Source: Candidatus Meridianibacter frigidus
GTDB taxonomy: Bacteria; Vulcanimicrobiota; Vulcanimicrobiia; Vulcanimicrobiales; Vulcanimicrobiaceae
Length of the DNA: 35,923 nucleotides
Assembly: GCA_003243975.1 (NCBI GenBank)
Contig: QHBJ01000019.1
Location: 1-35,923 of the forward strand
Direction of reading: 5' to 3'
In this document: one piece after another, positions 7,982-33,858 of the stretch
Layout: every line of letters begins with the position of its first letter
How positions within the stretch are numbered: position 1 is the stretch's first letter
Translations under genes and position numbers: made by a program
Notes under the pieces: model-generated
The model's database searches: none
What the model was told of the DNA's origin: nothing
The model's input: only the letters and a program-made list of their open reading frames with translations

Positions 7982-8474
7982 TCTTACCGGCATGGAACTG
8001 AAGCGCCAGGCCATTCATGCAATAGCGTAAGCCGGTCGGCGGCGGGCCATCATTGAAGAGGTGGCCCAAGTGTCCGCCGCAGCGGCGGCAGTGCACTTCA
8101 GTGCGCACGTCGCCCAGCGATGCATCCGTCTGCGTCTGCACTGCATTGCGCAGCGGCGCATAGAACGACGGCCAACCCGTTCCGCTCTCGAACTTGGTTT
8201 TAGAAGAAAAGAGTGCCAGGTCGCAGCCCGCGCAAACGTAGATGCCCGCGCGGTGCTCGTATTCCAACGGCGAGCTCCAGGGCGCTTCGGTATCTTGCCG
8301 GCGAAGAACGGCGTAGCGTTTCGCACCCAGACGAGCCAGCCATTGCGCGTCGGTATATTGCACTCCAAAACGGCCTGTGCTCGCGCGCGAAGCGCCGCAT
8401 CCCGCCAGTCCGAGGGCGGCGAACCCTCCGAAAGCCGCGAGCGCGGCGCGCCGGCTTACACGGTGATGTGGCAC
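7965..8474 (-). CDS. msrB: Peptide-methionine (R)-S-oxide reductase, Tat-exported lipoprotein form
   Basis: MsrB, 169 aa, reduces the R-sulfoxide of protein methionines. The N-terminus has a twin-arginine signal (RR at 8-9 followed by a hydrophobic stretch) ending in a lipobox, LAGC with Cys26. This predicts export by Tat and anchoring to a membrane rather than a cytosolic enzyme. The two zinc-binding CxxC pairs are present (Cys81/Cys84 and Cys129/Cys132), and the catalytic cysteine is Cys152 in RYCMNG (RYCIN in most relatives). Its start overlaps the end of msrA by 19 bp, so the two are translated from one message, msrA first. The 3' end overlaps pbpC on the other strand. An exported MsrB next to a non-exported MsrA is slightly odd: the pair would act in different compartments unless MsrA is also delivered. 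Confidence 0.95.
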
Positions 8475-8938
8475 GATACGCCGTTTTTCTCAAAGTAACG
8501 CTGGTGATAGTCTTCGGCCGGATGAAACTGCGGCGCAGCTTCGATCTGCGTCACAACGGGGCGCCCGCCGTGCGCGCCGGTGGTTTCCAGGCGCGCCTTC
8601 GAGGCTGAGGCCTGGGCTTGTTGCTCGGGAGTGTGATAGAAGATCACCGAACGGTATTGCGTACCGGTGTCTGGCCCCTGGCGGTTAAGCGTCGTCGGGT
8701 CGTGCATGCGCCAAAAGAGATCCAGCAGGGCATCGTATGAAACGCGCGCAGGATCGTAGCGGACTTGAACCACTTCGGCATGGCCGGTGCGATCGGTGCA
8801 GACATCGCGGTAGGTAGGCTGCAGCGTGGAGCCGCCCATGTATCCCGCGGTCGCATCGATTACCCCGGGCAGTTGCCGGAAGGCCGCTTCGACGCCCCAG
8901 AAACAGCCCGCGCCGAAGGTGGCCAGTTCTTCATTCAT
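8456..8938 (-). CDS. msrA: Peptide-methionine (S)-S-oxide reductase
   Basis: MsrA, about 160 aa from the preferred start, reduces the S-sulfoxide of methionine. The catalytic motif GAGCFWG (Cys12) sits near the N-terminus. Other family landmarks visible are DATAGYMGG, the [12 protein letters not shown] segment, GTQYRSVIF and the final YHQRYFEKN. An ATG two codons upstream (8944) touches the AGAGG Shine-Dalgarno directly, whereas the ATG at 8938 has a 6-base gap, so I take 8938 as the start. No signal peptide is visible, in contrast with its operon partner msrB. The promoter must lie in the roughly 80 bp between this gene and the end of the insertion element, so the element may have replaced its original upstream region. 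Confidence 0.95.
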
Positions 8939-23986: not shown

Positions 23987-24814
23987 ATGTCCGCTCAGCG
24001 GTGCCCGGTCGTCTACGTCTTAGCATGCCGCGATGGTTCGTTTTATGCCGGCTGGACCTTGGAACTCCGGAAGCGTTTGGAGGCGCATGCCCGCGGGGCC
24101 GGCGCCAAGTACGTGCGCAGCCGGCTGCCGTTTGCACTGGCAGCTTGGTGGCCAGCGGCGGATGCGACAGCGGCGCGTCGGCTTGAGACGGTCTTCAAAG
24201 CGCTATCTCGCGCGGGAAAGTTGGAGGTCTTGAGCGGGCGCCGGGGCATCGGTGCCGGAATGCGCAAGGCCCCGCTTTTTTTCGAGCCCCCAACTGCAGA
24301 AAGGCGTGCAATGTCGCACACCCCACCCACCGGAAATGAACTCGCCACGCTGGTCGATGAGGCGCGCCAAAGCCAAGCGCGCATTCGAACCGTAAAGGGC
24401 GACATCGTTTTCGCTTTCTATCCCGGCGATGCGCCGCAACATTGCGCCGCCTTTATCAAACTTGCGAACGCGGGCTTTTATGATGGCCTGACCTTTCACC
24501 GCGTCGAGCCGGGATTCGTCATTCAAGGGGGTGACCCGCAAGGCGACGGCACGGGAGGCCCCGGTTACCAGTTGGACGCAGAGTTCAGCAATCAGCCGCA
24601 CGTGCGTGGCACCGTCGCAATGGCACGCTCGGCCAATCCCAACTCTGCCGGATCGCAGTTTTATATGTGTCTTGCTGATGCCCGTTTTTTGGATAAGCAG
24701 TACACGGTATTCGGGCAGACGCGAGAGGGTCTGGATGTCTTGGATCAAATCCGGCGCGGGGACGCGATCGAATCCGTTCGTATCGAGCCCCTTGCAGCGC
24801 AAGGGGACCTATAA
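23987..24814 (+). CDS. GIY-YIG endonuclease domain fused to cyclophilin peptidyl-prolyl isomerase
   Basis: A continuous 275-codon frame with two unrelated domains. Residues 1-85 are a small UPF0213/YhbQ-like GIY-YIG nuclease: VYV (9-11), YAG (20-22), the arginine helix ELRKRLEAH and the catalytic Glu67 in ARRLETVFKAL. Residues about 118-275 are a cyclophilin: GFYDGLTFHRVEPGFVIQGGDPQGDGTG, VAMARSANPNSAGSQFYM and a YTVFGQTREGLDVLDQI tail. No stop codon separates them. An internal ATG (24311) with AAAGG 6-7 bases before it could start the isomerase separately, so the locus may make a fusion, two proteins, or both. The start at 23987 has a weak AAGG three bases away. The frame stays open to 23378 only as antisense of the anti-sigma gene. 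It overlaps the convergent serine hydrolase gene by 6 bp. Confidence 0.88.
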   Translation: MSAQRCPVVYVLACRDGSFYAGWTLELRKRLEAHARGAGAKYVRSRLPFALAAWWPAADATAARRLETVFKALSRAGKLEVLSGRRGIGAGMRKAPLFFEPPTAERRAMSHTPPTGNELATLVDEARQSQARIRTVKGDIVFAFYPGDAPQHCAAFIKLANAGFYDGLTFHRVEPGFVIQGGDPQGDGTGGPGYQLDAEFSNQPHVRGTVAMARSANPNSAGSQFYMCLADARFLDKQYTVFGQTREGLDVLDQIRRGDAIESVRIEPLAAQGDL

Positions 24815-25684
24815 GTTCGATCCTGCAACTGAGTTAAACACATCGGACGCGATTGCGGCGATGGCGCGGCGCGCGAGCTCGTAGCTTGAGAGATTCTTCG
24901 TAAACACGGTAAGCACGAACGGGGAGTCGCCGAAGGGGTCCACGATCGCAATGTCGTTGCGCACTCCGTCGACCTCTCCGGTCTTATTTGCTACGGGAGT
25001 TCCAGCGGGTAGGCCGGCTGGAATCTTGTCGCGATCGGTCTGGTGCAGCATGATGGCGACCATTCGGCGGCAGAACATTGGGTGCGCAACCGTGGTTATC
25101 TCCTCGCGCGCGCCGCGCTCGAGGGAGAAAAGCAAGCGTCCCATGTCGCCTGCCGTCGTGACATTCTCGTGATGATGAACGATCGCGCTGTAGTCTAGAA
25201 AGTGGCGCCGCAGGTACGTATTCGACAGTCCGGCGCGCCGGGCGCTGGCATTAATCGCGTCGAAGCCAAAATGCGTGATGAGAGCGTTGGCCGCGCTGTT
25301 ATCGCTGAGCGTAATCATCGGCGTAACGAGTTGCGCGACGGTATAGGTTTCTCCAGCGGACGCGCGCGCTAAGTAGGGAGAGCCACCGACGAAATCCGAC
25401 GAGCGCAGACGGACAGGCGCCTGCAGTGATCCGGGGGCGGTTTCTTCCCGGTGAAAGGCCGTAAGCATGATAAGCATCTTAATGGTCGATGCGGCGGGAA
25501 ACGACTCTTCTGTATTATAGGTGAAAAGAGCTGGTCCACTCTGCATCGTACGCACATAGACGCCGGCCGTGCCCGGAACGCGGCGAATCCGGTCTGCAAG
25601 CGCTTCCTGCAAGCTCGAGGCGCGCGCGTACCGTGGCAGCACTGCGAGCGCTGCCGTGCCCAGCAAGAACCCGGACCGCTTCAT
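24809..25684 (-). CDS. Class-A beta-lactamase-like serine hydrolase
   Basis: A 291-residue exported protein of the beta-lactamase-2/class A fold. After a signal peptide (KRSGFLLGTAALAVLPRYARA) come the active-site STIK (Ser66, Lys69), SDN (127-129) and KTG (234-236), spaced exactly as in class A beta-lactamases. The omega-loop ExxLN motif with the deacylating glutamate (Glu166) is absent: the region reads FLDYSAIVHHHENVTT. Without it, beta-lactam turnover should be poor, so a peptidase or D,D-peptidase-like role is as likely as resistance. I start at ATG 25684, whose A is shared with the last base of the permease stop (TGATG) with GGGAAG upstream; an earlier in-frame start would lie within the permease gene. 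Confidence 0.9.
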   Translation of the reverse strand: MKRSGFLLGTAALAVLPRYARASSLQEALADRIRRVPGTAGVYVRTMQSGPALFTYNTEESFPAASTIKMLIMLTAFHREETAPGSLQAPVRLRSSDFVGGSPYLARASAGETYTVAQLVTPMITLSDNSAANALITHFGFDAINASARRAGLSNTYLRRHFLDYSAIVHHHENVTTAGDMGRLLFSLERGAREEITTVAHPMFCRRMVAIMLHQTDRDKIPAGLPAGTPVANKTGEVDGVRNDIAIVDPFGDSPFVLTVFTKNLSSYELARRAIAAIASDVFNSVAGSNL

Positions 25685-26478
25685 CAGCTTCCCGTTCCCT
25701 GGTAGTGGTTTATTCCGACACGCCAGAAGGCGTAGGCCGCACAAAACCACACTAGTCCGACGAGCGGCGTAAGCAGCCCAACCGAGGCCGAGAGTGCAAG
25801 CCCGGTATCGGCTTTATGCAAGAAGTATGCCGCCGGAAAGTAGTTCATGAAGGCAAACGGCACGATGAACGTGAGCAACAAACGCACCCCGCGTGTGTAG
25901 ATGCTGATCGGATAGCGGGTGAAATCCTGCTCGAGGGATTGCACCATCCACGTGAGCGTGTCAACGCGGATAAACCAGAACGACGCGGTCGCTACCGCTA
26001 GGGAAATACCGAAGTCGATCAGTGCACCGCCGACCGCGATGAGGGGTACCATAAGAATGAAGACCGCATCCACATGCACGCCGCTGAAGCGGGTGGCCAC
26101 GATGAAGTACGCGATGGCCAGTACCATGCCGTCGATGGAAGTTTGATTCGGTACGGTAAGCGTTTGAAAGAGCGTATCGAGCGGCCGCACGAGAAAGCGG
26201 TCGAACCGCCCTTCGCGCACGAACTCCGGTACGTTCATGACCGAAAAGAAGAACGCATAGTTGATTCCGTTGGCGAGCATCCACAATCCATAGAGAAATG
26301 CCATCTGCCGGAAATCCCAGCCATTCATCGATGGAAATTGGCGCAGCGTCACCCATAGGGCGGCAATGGCGGTGCCGTGGTAGACAATGGAAAAGCCGGC
26401 CCACATGAAAAAGTTGCTGCGGTATTCGATCATGGTGAGGAACTCGAGGCGCCAGTATTGACGATAGGCCGCAAGCAT
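25684..26478 (-). CDS. ABC-2 type transporter permease (COG3694-like)
   Basis: A 264-residue membrane protein with six hydrophobic segments and the family features LEFLTMIEYRSNFFMW near the N-terminus and EGRFDRFLVRPLDTLFQ in the first cytoplasmic loop. This family works with a second permease and a COG4586-type ATPase as an exporter of unknown substrate. Its two natural partners are not adjacent but lie in the six-gene operon 5-7 kb away (31275-32069 and 32839-33858). It is followed by the serine hydrolase with a 1-base overlap. Its ATG touches the GTG start of the divergent alkA with no base between, so promoters for both must lie inside the opposite gene. Confidence 0.9.
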   Translation of the reverse strand: MLAAYRQYWRLEFLTMIEYRSNFFMWAGFSIVYHGTAIAALWVTLRQFPSMNGWDFRQMAFLYGLWMLANGINYAFFFSVMNVPEFVREGRFDRFLVRPLDTLFQTLTVPNQTSIDGMVLAIAYFIVATRFSGVHVDAVFILMVPLIAVGGALIDFGISLAVATASFWFIRVDTLTWMVQSLEQDFTRYPISIYTRGVRLLLTFIVPFAFMNYFPAAYFLHKADTGLALSASVGLLTPLVGLVWFCAAYAFWRVGINHYQGTGS

Positions 26479-27387
26479 GTGCGAAAAACTTCACCTTGGC
26501 TGGAGCAAGTCCCCGTCGCGCGGCCGTTCCGTCTTGACCTTACCGTTAACGCCCTACGGCGCCTCAGCACCAACATTGTGGATGTGGTTGGCGAGGATGG
26601 CACGTACCGGCGCGTCTTGGAAAGGGGCCACAATTGTGCGTTGCTATCCGTGCGCCAGCTCAGCGCTGATCTTGTGGAGATCCGCATTCAGGGTGCAAAC
26701 GCGGAAAAATTTTCCGGCGTGGCGCAACGTATGCTGGGGCTGCAGCGCGACCTGCGTTCGTGGGAACGCCACGCAGCGGGCGTCCCTTGGGTTGCGCGGC
26801 TAGCGCGCGCGCTGCGCGGGCTGAAGCCGCCGCGCTATCCGACGCTCTGGGAGGCGCTGGCGCATGCGATCATCTTTCAGCAGATCAGCATTCACGCGGC
26901 TTCGGCAATCATGCGGCGCACCATCGAGGCGCTCGCGCAGCCCGTCCGAGGACTCTATCCATTTCCAACGCCGCAGCAGATATGGGATGCGCCGCAATCG
27001 GTACTGGTTACCGCAGGCCTGAGTGCCAATAAAGTCGCGTCGCTGCGCGCGGCCGCGGCGGCAATCCTTGCGGGCGTGATCGATGAAGCCGCATTGGAAC
27101 GGCTCGATTCGGAATCGGCGATAGGTATGCTTACGGCCTTGCGCGGGATCGGGCCTTGGAGCGCGGCGGTCGTCCTGTTGCGGGGTCTGGGGCGCCTCGA
27201 TGTTTTTCCGCGCAAGGATTCGGGAGTAGCGGCTGCTATTGCGCTGCTCTCGGATGGAACAGAAGAAGACCCCGAAGGCCTGCCCGCGCGCCTTGGGCCG
27301 CAGCGGGGCATGCTCTACTTTCATCTGCTGCTGGGCAAGCTGGCGCGCGTCGAAAACCCATTGCAACCGCGCGTGGGTTATGAATAG
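26479..27387 (+). CDS. DNA-3-methyladenine glycosylase II (AlkA-like)
   Basis: A 302-residue base-excision repair glycosylase of the HhH-GPD superfamily. The helix-hairpin-helix is LRGIGPWSAAVVLL and the catalytic aspartate is Asp247 in DVFPRKDSG. HAIIFQQISIHAASAI is the usual glycosylase core helix. The N-terminal 100 residues match the AlkA-type beta domain in position. It removes alkylated purines from DNA. The GTG at 26479 directly abuts the permease ATG on the other strand; no better start is seen, and family length fits. The pirin gene begins inside its last codons, so the two are co-translated. A second alkylation-repair gene (AlkB-type) is 15 kb away, not in the same unit. Confidence 0.9.
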   Translation: MRKTSPWLEQVPVARPFRLDLTVNALRRLSTNIVDVVGEDGTYRRVLERGHNCALLSVRQLSADLVEIRIQGANAEKFSGVAQRMLGLQRDLRSWERHAAGVPWVARLARALRGLKPPRYPTLWEALAHAIIFQQISIHAASAIMRRTIEALAQPVRGLYPFPTPQQIWDAPQSVLVTAGLSANKVASLRAAAAAILAGVIDEAALERLDSESAIGMLTALRGIGPWSAAVVLLRGLGRLDVFPRKDSGVAAAIALLSDGTEEDPEGLPARLGPQRGMLYFHLLLGKLARVENPLQPRVGYE

Positions 27388-28087
27388 TATGTTTACCATT
27401 GTTCGAAGCGCGGAGCGCTACCACGCGCAGCACGGCTGGCTTGACACGTACCACTCGTTCAGCTTTGCCGACTACTTCGATCCCAACAACGTGAGCTGGG
27501 GTGCGCTGCGCGTCTTCAACGACGATACGATCGCACCCGCTCAAGGATTCCCAACGCATCCGCACCGCGACATGGAGATCATCACGTACATCTTTTCGGG
27601 AGAACTGGAGCACCGCGACAGTTTAGGCAATCACGGTGTGGTTTCGGATGGCGGCGTACAGTTTATGAGCGCGGGCACTGGTGTCCGGCATTCGGAATTC
27701 AATGGGTCGGCGGAACAACCGCTGCATCTGGTCCAAATGTGGGTGCTGCCGGGAAAACTCGGCGTTCGCCCCACCTACGGTCAGATCGACTTTAGCAAAG
27801 CAGATCGCACCAATCGCTGGCTGCCGGTTGCGAGCGGCCAGCCCGCTGTAGTGGCGCCGATTGCGCTCACGCAGGGAGCGACGCTGCGCGTAGCGCGCTT
27901 GGAGAGTGGCGCATTGCGGCACGAGTTTGCGCCCGAGCGATTCGGCTTTCTCTTCGTCGGCGCCGGCAGCATCGAGGTCAATGAGCATGGTTTGGAACAG
28001 GGCGACGCCTTCCGGACGCACGGTCGTGAGTCGCTTAAAATCTCAGGAAAGGGTGAGGTCGTGCTTTGGGACACGCCTCGCGCTTAG
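27380..28087 (+). CDS. Pirin family protein (YhhW-like, possible quercetinase)
   Basis: A 235-residue bicupin of the pirin family. The N-terminal RSAERYHAQHGWLDTYHSFSF and the metal ligands in FPTHPHRDMEI and GTGVRHSEFN (three His and a Glu) are intact; the C-terminal cupin is shorter. YhhW and human pirin bind iron and can oxidise quercetin, but the bacterial role is usually unknown. The ATG at 27380 overlaps the alkA stop by 8 bp; another ATG three codons later (27389) fits the family N-terminus equally well and there is no distinctive ribosome site to choose. It converges on the TonB-domain gene with a 10-bp gap. Confidence 0.92.
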   Translation: MNSMFTIVRSAERYHAQHGWLDTYHSFSFADYFDPNNVSWGALRVFNDDTIAPAQGFPTHPHRDMEIITYIFSGELEHRDSLGNHGVVSDGGVQFMSAGTGVRHSEFNGSAEQPLHLVQMWVLPGKLGVRPTYGQIDFSKADRTNRWLPVASGQPAVVAPIALTQGATLRVARLESGALRHEFAPERFGFLFVGAGSIEVNEHGLEQGDAFRTHGRESLKISGKGEVVLWDTPRA

Positions 28088-28097
28088 CGTCTGCGCG

Positions 28098-28937
28098 TCA
28101 AAAGCGTTGGACGTAGATGAAGACAGATGGGACATGCTGGCACAGAAAGGTTGCCGATCGATACTTGGAGTGAGCAGCGGCTCGCAGTCCCTCCGCGTCG
28201 AAAGCGACGTAACCGCTACCGCCGAAAAGCCATGCATCGCGCACTTGTCTGTCTGGGCCCACGAGAACCTTACTGATGACGTCAATCGGGCCGTTGGATG
28301 AGTAATTCAGGTTCTGCGGATAGGAAGCCGGCTGCGCTTGCGCGAGCGCGGGCGGTGTGTAAGCGGCGCCGCACCCCCGCTCCGGCATCGGAACCGCCGA
28401 CGCAGCGGGCAGCGCCGGTGGTGCACCGCCTCGAATGGCGGATGGGTTCGCACCGCCTTCGTTTCGCAGCGTTTCGACCAACGATTGCCGCGCTTCGGCG
28501 AGGTCGTACGGCGAAGCCGGACATTCAACGTCGGGACTCTTCTCGAATTTGGCATGACCAACCCAGACATCGCTGATGGCCGCCTTCAGCGGCAAGGAAA
28601 AATACAATGGCGCCGATTCGTAGTCCACATATCGTAAGAACGGCGCACTATCGGAGCGATAGAGCTGATGAACCGCGCGGTGCAGCTCGACGTTTTGAAA
28701 GGCGACCTCGTACCCAGTCGTCGATCCGGCGTAGATTTCCAAGTGCCCGCTAACCGTACGCGGAGCGCTGGCATGCAGCACGTAACCGTAGGCGTCGTCG
28801 CTTGCGGTTCGGTGAAGCGGCACCAGCAAGGCGGGCTCGGCAGCGCAAACGTCGGTAGCCGCAAACGCGCGGGCGGGGCAGAGCAAAGACAGCAGCAGCG
28901 CGGCGGCCGCCAACCAAAAGGGGCGCAAGAACGTCAC
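28098..28937 (-). CDS. Exported protein with C-terminal TonB domain
   Basis: A 279-residue protein starting with a cleavable-looking signal peptide (WLAAAALLLSLLCPARAFA). Residues about 25-160 are a beta-rich region that I do not recognise. A proline/alanine-rich stretch follows, and the last 65 residues (VISKVLVGPDRQVRDAWLFGGSG, then FDAEGLRAAAHSKYRSA) match the TonB C-terminal fold that contacts outer-membrane receptors. Classical TonB has an N-terminal anchor without cleavage; this one may be fully periplasmic. Its GTG start overlaps the APC permease stop (GTGA), making it the last gene of the six-gene operon. No TonB-dependent receptor, ExbB or ExbD is in the window. Confidence 0.8.
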   Translation of the reverse strand: MTFLRPFWLAAAALLLSLLCPARAFAATDVCAAEPALLVPLHRTASDDAYGYVLHASAPRTVSGHLEIYAGSTTGYEVAFQNVELHRAVHQLYRSDSAPFLRYVDYESAPLYFSLPLKAAISDVWVGHAKFEKSPDVECPASPYDLAEARQSLVETLRNEGGANPSAIRGGAPPALPAASAVPMPERGCGAAYTPPALAQAQPASYPQNLNYSSNGPIDVISKVLVGPDRQVRDAWLFGGSGYVAFDAEGLRAAAHSKYRSATFLCQHVPSVFIYVQRF

Positions 28938-30241
28938 GTGAGCGGCGTACTACGCGCGAAACGCTCGCGCATCCCGTACGCGGCCGCTCCGGCCGACAGA
29001 ACGATAAGCGTGAAGAGCGCGTTCGTGGGGCCGGCTGAAACGATTACGGCAACACCGGCCACGATGAAGAACACCGTAGTGATCGGGTGCCCCGGCACGC
29101 GCATTCCGCCCACCCCATGCACGCCGCGCGAGCGAAAGACGAAAATGGCTAGAGCCGCCAGCGAGAGGAAGACGAAATCCATTGCGGTTACGTAGCCGAT
29201 AATCTCGTAGTAGCCCTTCCAAAGCGTGATCGCGCAGGCGAAGGCCGCCTGCAGCACGATCGCCACGACCGGCGCTTGCGTGCGCGGATGCACGGATCCC
29301 ACCGAGCGGAAGAACAGCCTGTCGCGCGCCATCGCGTAGTAAATGCGAGGCGATGTCAAGATATTATTGCTCAAGAAGCCGAGGGTGGATAGCGCGATGC
29401 CGACGGCGATCACGCGCTGGCCGAGCGTTCCGAAGACCGCGCGCATGATGTCCGACGCTGGTGTCGACGTAGCGGCAAGCCCTTGGGCGCCAAGCACGCG
29501 CAGGCCGACGATCGTTACGGCGAGGTAGAGCACCACGACCGCGCTCACTCCGCCAATCATGCCGATCGGCAGAGCCCGACCCGTATCGCGCAGCTCGTGA
29601 TCGACGAACGGTGCGGTTTGCCATCCATCGTACGCGAAGAGCACGGGAATGAGTGCGGCGCCAATCATTGCCCAGAGAGCAGTTGGCGGTACGCTTGGCG
29701 CGGTCGCACCAGCTGCCGAAGCCGGCGCGCCGAAGATGCCCGCGGCGATCAGTGCTCCGATCGCGGCGATCTTCAGGAGCATGATGACGTTCTGCGTGGT
29801 ACTGCCTTCGCGCACACCCAGACAATTGATTGCGCTGAGGATAATGATGGTGCTCACGGCTACCATCGGCGGCGATGCGTTTAGATGAACCAGCGGTCCG
29901 AAATAATTTGCAAATACGATGCCCGCAGCCGCCAAACCGCCGCTTTGCGAGATGAGCAGCGCCGTCCAGCCGTACTCGAATGCGACCAGTGGATGAAATG
30001 CATCGCGCAGATAACCGTAGAGGCCGCCTGAATCGGGCCGGCGCCACGCCAATTCGGCGAAGATGAAGCCGCCGGTAAGCGCAATGAGTCCGCCCAAGAG
30101 CCAGACCGACACGATGAGCGCGGGCGTATGTGCGACTTGCGCAACCACGGAAGGGTTTGCGAAGATCCCGGCTCCGATAATGCCGCCCATGACGATGAGC
30201 GTCGCATCGACGGTGTTCAGCTTGCGGGCGAGCTTGTTCAA
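28934..30241 (-). CDS. APC-superfamily amino acid permease
   Basis: A 435-residue, roughly 12-TM transporter of the amino acid-polyamine-organocation family. The first helix motif MGGIIGAGIFANP and the FAELAWRRPDSGGLYGYLRDAF segment are characteristic, as is the middle ALIPVLFAYDGWQ. It brings amino acids or similar amines across the inner membrane, often by exchange. I start at TTG 30241, which overlaps the Rieske gene stop (TTGA); the open frame continues upstream to 30436 only inside the Rieske coding region. The downstream TonB-domain gene overlaps by four bases. Linked to a betaine/carnitine-type oxygenase, the substrate could be a quaternary amine or an amino acid derived from it (inference). 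Confidence 0.9.
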   Translation of the reverse strand: MNKLARKLNTVDATLIVMGGIIGAGIFANPSVVAQVAHTPALIVSVWLLGGLIALTGGFIFAELAWRRPDSGGLYGYLRDAFHPLVAFEYGWTALLISQSGGLAAAGIVFANYFGPLVHLNASPPMVAVSTIIILSAINCLGVREGSTTQNVIMLLKIAAIGALIAAGIFGAPASAAGATAPSVPPTALWAMIGAALIPVLFAYDGWQTAPFVDHELRDTGRALPIGMIGGVSAVVVLYLAVTIVGLRVLGAQGLAATSTPASDIMRAVFGTLGQRVIAVGIALSTLGFLSNNILTSPRIYYAMARDRLFFRSVGSVHPRTQAPVVAIVLQAAFACAITLWKGYYEIIGYVTAMDFVFLSLAALAIFVFRSRGVHGVGGMRVPGHPITTVFFIVAGVAVIVSAGPTNALFTLIVLSAGAAAYGMRERFARSTPLT

Positions 30242-31272
30242 ACTTGATTCAGCGTTGCCAGATAATGCCGGTCGAATGCATAGAGCAAGCCTTCCGACTG
30301 GGCGTAGGGTCCGGGCTCGTAGGCACGCGATGCGACGCCGAGTTGCGTGCGCTCGTTCACGGCCCAATCTTGGCGGTTGGTCAAATCCCAGAAGTCCACA
30401 TGGCTTGCAACCTCTTTGGAGGAGAGCCATTCGCACACTACTTCGGTGCGGTCGGCTGCAAGCGGTTGCACGTAGTGAACCATAATGTAGTCGGGATGAA
30501 AGCTCAGCAGAAGCGACGGAAAAACGGTGTAGTAATAAACGCGGTTTTCATTCAACGGGGCGTCGCGCAGCACTGAATAGCCGCCCAGCACGGGACCTTC
30601 TAGCAGATCGTTGCGCCCGCTGTCCCAGGCCGAGATCTTCTCGAGCTGGGGGTGGATGACCGGGCAGTGGTAACACTCGGAGTAGTTTTGAAACACGAGC
30701 TTCCAGTTGCAGGCCACGTGGTACGTGATACGGGCAACGGTCGGCAGTTGCGCTGGCTTCCAGGGCGCGCACTTCTCACCGATGATTGTTAAACTCGCGT
30801 CGAGCGGCGCTGCGTGCGGCTCGAGATTTGCGAACAAGAAGCCGTGCAGTTCGCAGATCCGGGCCTCGCGCAGCCGGCATTCCGACGTGCGAAAATCGTC
30901 GACTTCCGCCATATTCCGGGCGAAACGCAGCGTCCCGTCTAAGGCGTAGGTCCACGCGTGGTACGGACACTGGATGGTGGCTTTGAACTCCCCCGAGGAA
31001 TCCGTGCAAAGGCGCGTCCCGCGATGCCGGCAGACATTATAGAACGCACGGATTTGGGCGTCGTCGCCCCGCACGACGATCAAACTCTCGTCCGCGACGC
31101 TGCACGTGAAGAATTGGCCGGCGCGCGCCAGCTGCGCGCTCCGTCCCACGCAGATCCAATGGTGCGCGAAGAGCCGTTCCCGTTCCCGTTTGAAAATTTC
31201 TGCGGATACGTAGTAGGATTGCGCGAGCGTTCTCGCACCCTTGGGAACCGAGGCCTTCGTGAACCCGTCCAC
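30238..31272 (-). CDS. Rieske non-heme iron oxygenase, alpha subunit
   Basis: A 344-residue oxygenase. The Rieske [2Fe-2S] site is CRHRGTRLC (Cys81, His83) and CPYHAWTY (Cys102, His105). The catalytic iron site is NYSECYHCPVIHP (His202, His207), with Glu199 where many ring-hydroxylating enzymes have an aspartate bridge. That form is known in glycine betaine/carnitine and related Rieske monooxygenases as well as in uncharacterised members. GTG 31272 is chosen because an AAGGCGG lies six bases upstream, and the permease stop is two bases before it. No reductase or ferredoxin gene is in the operon, so electrons must come from elsewhere. The gene sits between an exporter permease and an APC permease, suggesting it modifies a transported compound. 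Confidence 0.92.
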   Translation of the reverse strand: MDGFTKASVPKGARTLAQSYYVSAEIFKRERERLFAHHWICVGRSAQLARAGQFFTCSVADESLIVVRGDDAQIRAFYNVCRHRGTRLCTDSSGEFKATIQCPYHAWTYALDGTLRFARNMAEVDDFRTSECRLREARICELHGFLFANLEPHAAPLDASLTIIGEKCAPWKPAQLPTVARITYHVACNWKLVFQNYSECYHCPVIHPQLEKISAWDSGRNDLLEGPVLGGYSVLRDAPLNENRVYYYTVFPSLLLSFHPDYIMVHYVQPLAADRTEVVCEWLSSKEVASHVDFWDLTNRQDWAVNERTQLGVASRAYEPGPYAQSEGLLYAFDRHYLATLNQV

Positions 31273-31274
31273 CC

Positions 31275-32069
31275 CTAGCCGCCTTGAACGACCACTCGCG
31301 TAGAGGCGGCGCGCCACATGAATGCCGACAGCAGCCCGAAGAAGGACAGCCACGCCGCTTGGACGGTGAAGTAGTGGCCGTACTCCGCCGGACGGATGAT
31401 GCCGACGTAGATGAGCAGCGGAGTCGAATAGATGGCCGCAAAGGGCAGCGCGAAGACCACGCGGCCTAGGATTCCCGGAAAGAAGGTGAGGGGGATGATC
31501 TGCCCGCTGAGCAGATCGGAAACCCAGCGCACGATGAGCTGGATCGCGAATGTTTCCAGGGTCCAGAATGCGATCGTATTCATCAGAAAGTTTAGAAAGA
31601 AGTTGACCAGATAACCGAGCAGAAAAGAGAAGGCGAATGCCGCAAGAACGTCGGGTGATGGGACGTCGATGTGGACGAGCAGCAAGGCGAAAAGCACGGA
31701 GGGAATAACCAGCAGCGCGTGCAGCCCCGTTTGGCCCACTCCATCACTAAAGAAGTAGGCCGGCAGACTGATGGGTTTCATTAGGTCGGTCGCTATGCTA
31801 CCCTCGCGAATTTTCTGCCGGATGACGCGGGTGCCGTCGACTTCCAGCACGAGCGACATCAAGAGCGCGACCGTCGCATAGGTAATCATCGCGTGCAGCG
31901 GGAGGTTGAAGGGGGTCACGTTTTGCGCGTAGAGCGCGGTCCAAAGCGAGCGGAGCAGGTACACGCGTAGGATCAGCGAGGCGATTTCCGTGAAGACTTC
32001 GATGCGGTAGGTGGCCTCTCGCGCGAAGGCCTTGCGTGCGAACTCGGCGTACGGCGCGAGCCGGAGCAT
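31275..32069 (-). CDS. ABC-2 type transporter permease (COG4587-like)
   Basis: A 264-residue membrane protein with about six hydrophobic segments, the second permease type of the COG4586/4587/3694 exporters. EATYRIEVFTEIASLILRVY in the N-terminus and KIREGSIATDLMKPISLP in the first loop are family features. With the ATPase in the same operon and the permease at 25684-26478 it would make a complete transporter. It starts two bases after the beta-helix gene's stop and ends two bases before the Rieske GTG. The substrate of this family is not established. Confidence 0.9.
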   Translation of the reverse strand: MLRLAPYAEFARKAFAREATYRIEVFTEIASLILRVYLLRSLWTALYAQNVTPFNLPLHAMITYATVALLMSLVLEVDGTRVIRQKIREGSIATDLMKPISLPAYFFSDGVGQTGLHALLVIPSVLFALLLVHIDVPSPDVLAAFAFSFLLGYLVNFFLNFLMNTIAFWTLETFAIQLIVRWVSDLLSGQIIPLTFFPGILGRVVFALPFAAIYSTPLLIYVGIIRPAEYGHYFTVQAAWLSFFGLLSAFMWRAASTRVVVQGG

Positions 32070-32071
32070 CG

Positions 32072-32842
32072 CTACTTCTTGCCGCGCTTCTCTCGCTCGA
32101 TCGCGGCTTCGCGGCGGAGCCGCGCCTCCTCGAGCTCAGCGAACATAACGTCGACCACCTTGCCCACGTCCGCCGCTTGCGTCGGCGGCGGCTCTTCGAG
32201 TTTGGAGCGTGATTTGGGCGGCGCGGGTTTCTTGTCTTTTTCCGCGATGACGGCATCTTGTGCGTGGCGCTTGCGCAAGAACTTCGAGTACGATTCGGCG
32301 GCCTTCGCGCGCACGTCATCGCTCGGCTCGAGATTGAAGACCGTTTCAAAGAAGTTCATCGCCTCGTGCACGGCGGGCGCCTCCCGCGGGGGATGGATTA
32401 CCGCGGGATCCCCATAGGCAATATGCTGCATGGGCACGTGCTGGCCGGCGCGCACCCGGGTGTTGATATGCACGATGCCGCCGATGGCAACCGAAACGCC
32501 TTGCTCGACCGTCGCTCCATTGAACACTTTCGCGCCGGCCGCAATGAAGGCACCGGGCTCGATGGTGGCGCCGACAACGTATGCGCCCGGCCCGACGATG
32601 CAGCTCTCGCCGATCTCGAGCGGGAATAGCAGGGCGCTCCCGCCGCTCGATTTGAGCACGGCATTCTCCATGACGACCGTGTTGGCACCGATGGTGATGG
32701 GCGCGCCCTCCGCCGTAACGACCGATCCGAAAAGGATCGCGCACCCTTCTTCGATGGTGACGTCGCCACTTATGGTGGCGGTCGGCGCCACGTAGGCAGA
32801 ACCGTGCACGGTGGGTTTCTTTGCATTGCTCGATACGATCAT
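32072..32842 (-). CDS. Left-handed beta-helix protein, gamma-carbonic-anhydrase fold without zinc ligands
   Basis: A 256-residue protein. Residues 10-160 are hexapeptide repeats of a left-handed beta helix closest to the gamma-carbonic-anhydrase/YrdA/PaaY group (PTVHGSAYVAPTATISGDV, then IGANTVVMENAVL and AYGDPAVIHPP). The three zinc histidines of that group are replaced: VLH is VLK (Lys64), the GH is GP (Pro85) and the LHG His is Val90. It should therefore be structural, not a carbonic anhydrase. Residues about 175-256 are a charged tail with a proline/lysine linker (KKPAPPKSRSK) and a terminal helix (EEARLRREAAIEREK), probably a coiled coil for protein contact. It overlaps the ATPase stop by four bases (ATGA) and precedes the permease by two. 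Confidence 0.9.
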   Translation of the reverse strand: MIVSSNAKKPTVHGSAYVAPTATISGDVTIEEGCAILFGSVVTAEGAPITIGANTVVMENAVLKSSGGSALLFPLEIGESCIVGPGAYVVGATIEPGAFIAAGAKVFNGATVEQGVSVAIGGIVHINTRVRAGQHVPMQHIAYGDPAVIHPPREAPAVHEAMNFFETVFNLEPSDDVRAKAAESYSKFLRKRHAQDAVIAEKDKKPAPPKSRSKLEEPPPTQAADVGKVVDVMFAELEEARLRREAAIEREKRGKK

Positions 32843-33858
32843 GTCGGAACCTCACGCGGTGCTTTGGACGATGGCTCTTGGTAGCCCTCGACATAGATGC
32901 GGCGGATAATCGTCTCGAGGTCCGGTTCCTCGATTGAAACGTCGAGCAGCGGGTAGCGTTCGGCCGCTTCGCGTATGAGCGCGTCCGCGCGCACCAGCGT
33001 GCGGTCGAAGCGAAATCGCGCAATGTTCGCTTCGTTTTCGATGAGCTCTGCCTCGGGCAGGGAGAGCTCGCGCTGCGGTTCACTGAAGGTGACCACGAGC
33101 GTGCGGTGGGTGCCGTACTGCTCCTTGATGCGCTCGATCGGACCATCGTAGATGATCGTTCCGCGATCGATGAGGACGATGCGCTTGGAAAGGCGTTCGA
33201 CGTCCGCCAGATCGTGCGTGGTCAGGATGATAGTCGTCCCCCGCTCGGCGTTGATGGTGCTGACGAAGTCGCGAATCGCTTCCTTCGCGACGACGTCGAG
33301 GCCGATGGTTGGTTCGTCGAGGTACACGATCTGCGGATCGTGCAGCATGGCGGCGGCGAAATCTCCACGCATGCGCTGTCCGAGCGAGAGCTGGCGAACG
33401 GGCGTGCGCAGGAACTCCGCCATCTCCAGCCGCGCGATAAAGTCGTCCAGGTTACGGCGGTAGCGCGTCGCCGGAACGGCGTAAATCGCTCGCAAGAGTT
33501 CGAACGACTCGATCAGCGGCAAATCCCAGTACAATTGCGAGCGTTGCCCGAACACAACGCCGATGTTGCGTGCGTTCTCCTTGCGGCGTTGATACGGGAC
33601 GATGCCCGCAACCTCGATCGACCCGGAGGTCGGCACCAAGATGCCCGTCAGCATCTTGATCGTGGTTGATTTTCCCGCGCCGTTCGGACCGATGTAGCCC
33701 ACCAGTTCGCCGGGTTCAAGCGACATATTGACATTTCGCACAGCCATCTTTTCATCGTATTGGCGTGAGAAGAGCGTGCGCAGCGCGCCGCCCGCGCCGC
33801 TTTGGCGGCGCACCGAGCGGAAACTCTTGCAAAGGTCGCGAGTTTGGATTATCGGCAT
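32839..33858 (-). CDS. ABC transporter ATP-binding protein (COG4586-like)
   Basis: A 339-residue ATPase and the first gene of the six-gene operon. Walker A is GPNGAGKST (57-65), the signature is LSLGQ (157-161) and Walker B IVYLDEPT (177-184), with a QR Q-loop region before. The N-terminal insert RQSGAGGALRTLFSRQYDEK and a C-terminal extension of about 90 residues are usual in this subfamily. It would power the ABC-2 permeases at 31275-32069 and 25684-26478. The ATG at 33858 is 26 bp from the divergent kinase-like gene; its TGA overlaps the next ATG. Confidence 0.94.
   Translation of the reverse strand: MPIIQTRDLCKSFRSVRRQSGAGGALRTLFSRQYDEKMAVRNVNMSLEPGELVGYIGPNGAGKSTTIKMLTGILVPTSGSIEVAGIVPYQRRKENARNIGVVFGQRSQLYWDLPLIESFELLRAIYAVPATRYRRNLDDFIARLEMAEFLRTPVRQLSLGQRMRGDFAAAMLHDPQIVYLDEPTIGLDVVAKEAIRDFVSTINAERGTTIILTTHDLADVERLSKRIVLIDRGTIIYDGPIERIKEQYGTHRTLVVTFSEPQRELSLPEAELIENEANIARFRFDRTLVRADALIREAAERYPLLDVSIEEPDLETIIRRIYVEGYQEPSSKAPREVPT

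Follow-up and report, generated by a model that had tools for sequence, protein, structure and literature searches.

Group V Rieske non-heme iron oxygenases, among them CntA, the stachydrine demethylase Stc2, GbcA and choline monooxygenase, carry recognisable marks around their metal centres. In CntA a bridging glutamate, E205, lies between the two metal sites (PMC7948474), and a Cys-x-x-Cys pair sits by the iron in some group V members (C206/C209 in CntA; PMC10952381). The aromatic Tyr203, involved in cation-pi binding, is found in CntA and choline monooxygenase and not in Stc2 or GbcA (PMC7948474). The bridging Glu, the Cys pair and the Tyr are marks of the quaternary-ammonium enzymes of the group (PMC7948474, PMC10952381). 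Three further described systems are relevant here: exporters with a DrrA-type ATPase and paired PF06182 permeases; the gamma-class carbonic anhydrases, CcmM and the carbonic anhydrase subunits of complex I, built as left-handed beta-helices of hexapeptide repeats; and the TonB energy transducers, held by an uncleaved N-terminal anchor that contacts ExbB/ExbD. Relatives of all four are encoded by a single run of genes in the window, the whole stretch of 35,923 nucleotides analysed here, which is a contig of a 1.95 Mb genome (96% complete, 43 contigs) with relatives among the Eremiobacterota. Our literature search found no description of this six-gene combination.

The run comprises six open reading frames, all on the minus strand, between positions 28098 and 33858. 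An earlier note had described them as coupled by overlaps of four bases or gaps of two, and both coordinates and junctions were confirmed from the sequence: the ATPase and left-handed beta-helix (LbH) genes overlap by four bases, gaps of two bases separate the LbH gene from permease 1 and permease 1 from the Rieske gene, and overlaps of four bases join Rieske to APC and APC to the TonB-domain gene. Two of these values depend on the choice of starts further downstream, a GTG at 31272 for Rieske and a TTG at 30241 for APC; an independent codon-usage gene caller picked both as well. For the first five genes, the protein families named in that note were likewise recovered by Pfam (as ABC_tran, Hexapep, ABC2_membrane_6 or PF06182, Rieske with Ring_hydroxyl_A, and AA_permease_2). 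The tight packing is genuine, though common in these genomes: of 319 same-strand neighbour pairs counted in the window together with 40 related loci, 34% are spaced at -4 to +5 bases. It supports a presumed co-transcription of the six genes and says little about shared function. The run is likely to be a lineage-specific composite operon, in which a conserved ABC-2 exporter and a cassette for quaternary-amine uptake and oxidation have been joined. It would then be a clear case of four-base overlaps extending over six genes without marking one ancient functional unit.

The substrate class of the cassette is suggested by its oxygenase. The Rieske gene (30238-31272, minus strand) encodes a protein of 344 aa with PF00355 and PF00848 matches, whose closest solved relatives are CntA, the putative oxygenase 3n0q and Stc2, at 148-161 bits against about 90 bits or less for ring-hydroxylating dioxygenases. 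With CntA, Stc2, GbcA and choline monooxygenase it shares the CxH/CxxH cluster, the ExxHxxxxH motif with its bridging Glu, and the Cys-x-x-Cys. The [2Fe-2S] ligands (CRH at 81-83, CPYH at 102-105) are invariant in 20 sequences; the mononuclear iron ligands, His202, His207 and an Asp of DFWDLTNRQDW, are invariant or nearly so, and the choice of the iron-binding Asp within that motif is a provisional reading. The bridging Glu199 in NYSECYHC aligns with the ECYHC of CntA, Cys200 and Cys203 form the pair beside the iron, and Tyr197, two residues before the Glu, is equivalent to CntA Tyr203. The predicted model (pLDDT 87.6) has CntA with carnitine bound as its best fold match (TM 0.83). Unlike CntA, with which it shares ~27-29% identity, the window protein is missing two loops: ~22 residues after GGYS and ~8 residues before DFWDLTNRQDW are absent, both through in-frame deletions private to this protein among the aligned homologues. 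Judging from these residues and the model, the enzyme is probably of the group V, quaternary-ammonium type, with a substrate that is probably choline- or carnitine-like.

The surroundings of the gene differ from those of other group V oxygenases in that it adjoins an APC permease, and a reductase gene is neither beside it nor recognisable in the genome. No gene for a flavin/[2Fe-2S] reductase partner lies near the Rieske gene, and no protein of the whole genome, at 96% completeness, combines PF00175 with PF00111 as a CntB/GbcB-type reductase. The two best DAO matches of the genome are dissimilar to the sarcosine-oxidase-like flavoprotein gene found beside a Rieske gene in a related locus (L149), and a local breakdown route through sarcosine oxidase is thus not supported. 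With neither the reductase nor the sarcosine-oxidase homologue found, the steps that would follow the oxygenase cannot be made out. Could the Rieske gene then be decaying, carried along as a long-branch copy that has shed loops and is left with no partner reductase or pathway? Its end branch in the maximum-likelihood tree is indeed long (0.6), the two deletions are unseen in the aligned homologues and no CntB-type reductase was found, yet the frame is intact, as is that of the APC gene, the protein retains every cluster and iron ligand together with the bridging Glu and the Cys pair, and the confident model still matches CntA. We regard decay as unlikely.

The composite-operon reading draws much of its weight from the occurrence of the two halves elsewhere. 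Directly downstream of the Rieske gene, the APC-family gene (28934-30241, minus strand, TTG start) encodes a permease of 435 aa of the amino acid/polyamine type (PF13520, E 1.4e-47). The APC family moves mainly amino acids, and sequence does not tell the substrate; the best solved relative is annotated as 'Putative amino acid/polyamine transport protein' (9h76/6f2g). The Rieske gene is present in 51 of the 117 class genomes, and a direct succession of Rieske and APC genes, away from the exporter, was found in G033, G024, G013 and G031, with a four-base overlap in G033 and G013. The pair also occurs in L033, L034, L037 and L044; overall, no fewer than four other genomes of the family in the sample, plus four more genome records, carry it. 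In the maximum-likelihood tree the window Rieske forms a clade with eight other Rieske sequences, all of them APC-paired (support 97/84). The APC tree, which places the window gene without strong support, is too weak to confirm co-inheritance of the two genes and does not contradict it. The pair thus recurs, and the group V marks fit quaternary amine oxidation, which comes close to the oxidised or demethylated amine of the earlier note and partly supports its reading. The findings suggest that Eremiobacterota harbour a group V Rieske lineage paired with an APC transporter of its own, whose substrate is open to testing.

Several Rieske relatives adjoin a gene for a sarcosine-oxidase-like flavoprotein (L149:7229-10747, L155:6579-11597, L148:86-8862, L151:4626-8179), and several of these loci also hold a divergent second Rieske gene and another APC permease. 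Such loci in other Eremiobacterota likely represent a betaine or N-methyl amine pathway, and the presence of the flavoprotein beside the Rieske gene in relatives fits N-methyl amine breakdown as well. In two loci (L144:3947-4444, L145:6676-7278) the Rieske-APC pair is immediately preceded by a homologue of the window gene at 8456-8938, which by eye is methionine sulfoxide reductase-like.

The other half of the run is a conserved exporter. Its ATPase gene (32839-33858, minus strand) encodes a DrrA-like protein of 339 aa (PF00005, E 3.7e-26; drrA as best NCBIfam relative) and is syntenic in relatives, and permease 1 (31275-32069, minus strand) is an ABC-2 permease of 264 aa (PF06182, E 1.4e-17). 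Permease 1 is present in 53 of 60 relatives and, under a strict cut, in 104 of the 117 class (Eremiobacterota) genomes, with identities usually of 65-82% within the family. Wherever its locus was read, it comes after the ATPase, mostly with the LbH gene between the two; the LbH gene is absent from this position in several relatives (L137, L139 and L142) and is thus an optional part. The exporter as drawn in the earlier note, with a single permease, proved incomplete: a second PF06182 permease, also of 264 aa (25684-26478, minus strand; E 2e-41), lies outside the six-gene run, 4.8 kb beyond permease 1 and past two genes on the opposite strand. Like the DrrA-type exporters, the window thus has an ATPase and two permeases; it differs from them in the zinc-less gamma-carbonic-anhydrase-like gene between ATPase and permease 1 and in having its permease genes split by five genes. 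The stop of permease 2 is overlapped by one base by a gene for a class A beta-lactamase-like serine hydrolase (24809-25684, minus strand; PF13354, E 5.3e-54), which follows permease 2 in relatives as well. By eye, this protein has SxxK, SDN and KTG and no obvious ExxLN. The hydrolase gene is kept with the exporter in many relatives and is coupled to permease 2 in the window.

What lies between the two permeases (26478-31275 in the window; L124-L143 in relatives) is variable. Permease 2 and the beta-lactamase-like gene stand directly behind permease 1 in L130, L135 and L141, where the permeases are 5-27 bases apart, and in L142 and L143 permease 2 is again directly behind permease 1, with no hydrolase gene called. 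Other relatives have permease 1, then opposite-strand pirin and HhH-GPD genes, then permease 2 and the hydrolase gene. The window retains both of these opposite-strand genes: the convergent pirin-like gene (27389-28087, plus strand; PF02678), whose identity is also backed by synteny and which adjoins permease 1 on that side in many relatives, and an HhH-GPD DNA glycosylase-like frame with a tentative start (26377-27387, plus strand; PF00730), present in relatives too. Between permease 1 and pirin it holds exactly the Rieske, APC and TonB_C genes, which were found between permease 1 and permease 2 or pirin in none of the relatives' loci read. Slot contents elsewhere include an aspartyl protease/PDZ protein, a transglutaminase with a solute-binding protein, a HAD hydrolase and an acyl-CoA dehydrogenase. 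The slot is thus empty in some genera, filled by pirin and HhH-GPD genes in many, and occupied by unrelated enzymes in others. A pyridine nucleotide-disulphide oxidoreductase is encoded behind permease 1 in three relatives (L137:6631-7983, L139:5518-7748, L142:6927-8276), although in L139 an intradiol catechol dioxygenase intervenes between permease 1 and the oxidoreductase; redox enzymes thus recur at this position.

We also considered artefactual and recent origins of the insertion. The insert lies 2 bases from permease 1 at one end and 10 bases from pirin at the other, so that the sequence runs back into syntenic genes on both sides, and for this reason misassembly of the metagenome is considered unlikely. 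No sign of recent transfer was seen in base composition, the GC3 of the Rieske/APC/TonB cassette (0.69-0.75) being like that of its neighbours (0.68-0.79). When a plasmid origin was tested by DNA similarity, the matches were confined to short pieces of the Rieske gene.

Under the composite-operon reading, the first module would be an Eremiobacterial ABC-2 exporter consisting of the ATPase, the zinc-less gamma-carbonic-anhydrase-like protein, both permeases and the beta-lactamase-like hydrolase. The cassette of Rieske, APC and TonB_C genes would have entered the slot behind permease 1 in this lineage, and would now be read through from permease 1 across tight and overlapping junctions. Most likely the APC permease would import a small quaternary-ammonium compound of the choline, carnitine or betaine type, which the group V Rieske would hydroxylate with electrons from an unlinked reductase, leading to N-demethylation or C-N cleavage. 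The exporter, for which permease 2 is encoded at a distance of 4.8 kb, would perform an envelope export task of its own, presumably with no functional link to the cassette; the directions of transport are likewise predictions.

The earlier note had read the six genes as one module, in which a compound imported by APC and oxidised by Rieske is exported as a product by the ABC transporter and the TonB-domain protein, with the LbH protein as a putative scaffold. In favour of such an integrated system, every junction is close enough to permit co-translation, a lineage-specific join can persist because its parts cooperate, and oxidative enzymes stand behind permease 1 elsewhere (the catechol dioxygenase in L139, the oxidoreductase in L137 and L142). 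The distribution of the genes speaks against it. The exporter permease is found with no Rieske gene next to it in 103 further genomes of the class, the cassette is seen in places with no exporter close by, the second permease lies outside the run, and the TonB_C gene is unlinked to Rieske in L160, the only genome where a close homologue is present. When coordinates were compared across the 117 class genomes, Rieske and permease 1 were found within 10 kb of each other in the window genome only; they are about 42 kb apart in G013, share a contig in G066 and G120 but at a distance of about 1.5 Mb, and lie on different large contigs in the near-complete genomes G024 (C2 and C6) and G102 (C1 and C2). 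The result by which the earlier note said its reading would be refuted, a lack of conserved neighbours even in close relatives, was obtained for the combination: the full six-gene set occurs together in one of the 117 class genomes, that of the window, which is also the only representative of its genus among them. Since the exporter is kept without the cassette and the Rieske-APC pair stands away from the exporter, this is not a conserved six-gene system, and we consider an integrated system quite improbable.

With other genomes of the genus absent from the sample, it is harder to judge how old or how useful the join is. It is conceivable that the join is functional within the genus, the cassette having been recruited into the exporter operon and the product of the trimmed Rieske enzyme being handled by the exporter or the TonB_C protein, which would constitute a transport-oxidation-export pathway not described before; we consider this very improbable. 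An ancestral six-gene order, later lost from every other lineage sampled, is formally possible but found no support, would require dozens of independent losses, and is rejected on synteny as extremely improbable. Permeases 1 and 2 stand next to each other in L143, from the sister family, and in L130, L135, L141 and L142, from several genera, so that an empty slot is likely to be the older state.

The two remaining proteins of the run each depart from the families they resemble. The LbH protein (32072-32842, minus strand; 256 aa; Hexapep, E 7.2e-11) has the gamma-carbonic-anhydrase subunits of complex I as its nearest solved relatives, and shares the left-handed beta-helix and hexapeptide repeats with gamma-class carbonic anhydrases, CcmM and these subunits. 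It differs from them by an additional C-terminal extension of ~100 residues and by the replacement of all three zinc histidines: K, P and V occupy the aligned columns, which, from established knowledge of the Cam family, we take to be the zinc ligands. No aligned LbH relative has all three histidines. Gamma-carbonic anhydrase activity is rejected, the zinc ligands being absent. The zinc-less gene sits between the ATPase and permease of the exporter, and its presence varies among relatives.

For the last gene of the run (28098-28937, minus strand; 279 aa), the TonB assignment of the earlier note holds at the level of family and fold and finds no Pfam match for the window protein alone, even at E 10. 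Eight of 12 scanned family members match TonB_C (PF03544), and a search of the PDB with the family profile brings up TonB C-terminal domains. Domains of this kind are also the best fold matches of the predicted model (mean pLDDT 75), with Foldseek probability 1.00 but E-values above 0.001. The protein shares this C-terminal fold with TonB energy transducers and differs from them in an extra N-terminal beta domain and in an N-terminus that resembles a cleavable signal rather than an anchor with a stalk; by eye it reads as a signal peptide, and the protein is probably secreted. One close relative of the gene was found (49%, in G031), and it is not beside the Rieske pair. In Eremiobacterota, probably secreted TonB_C-domain proteins form a many-copy family (L113-L123) with conserved cysteines and an N-terminal beta domain that has no Pfam match.
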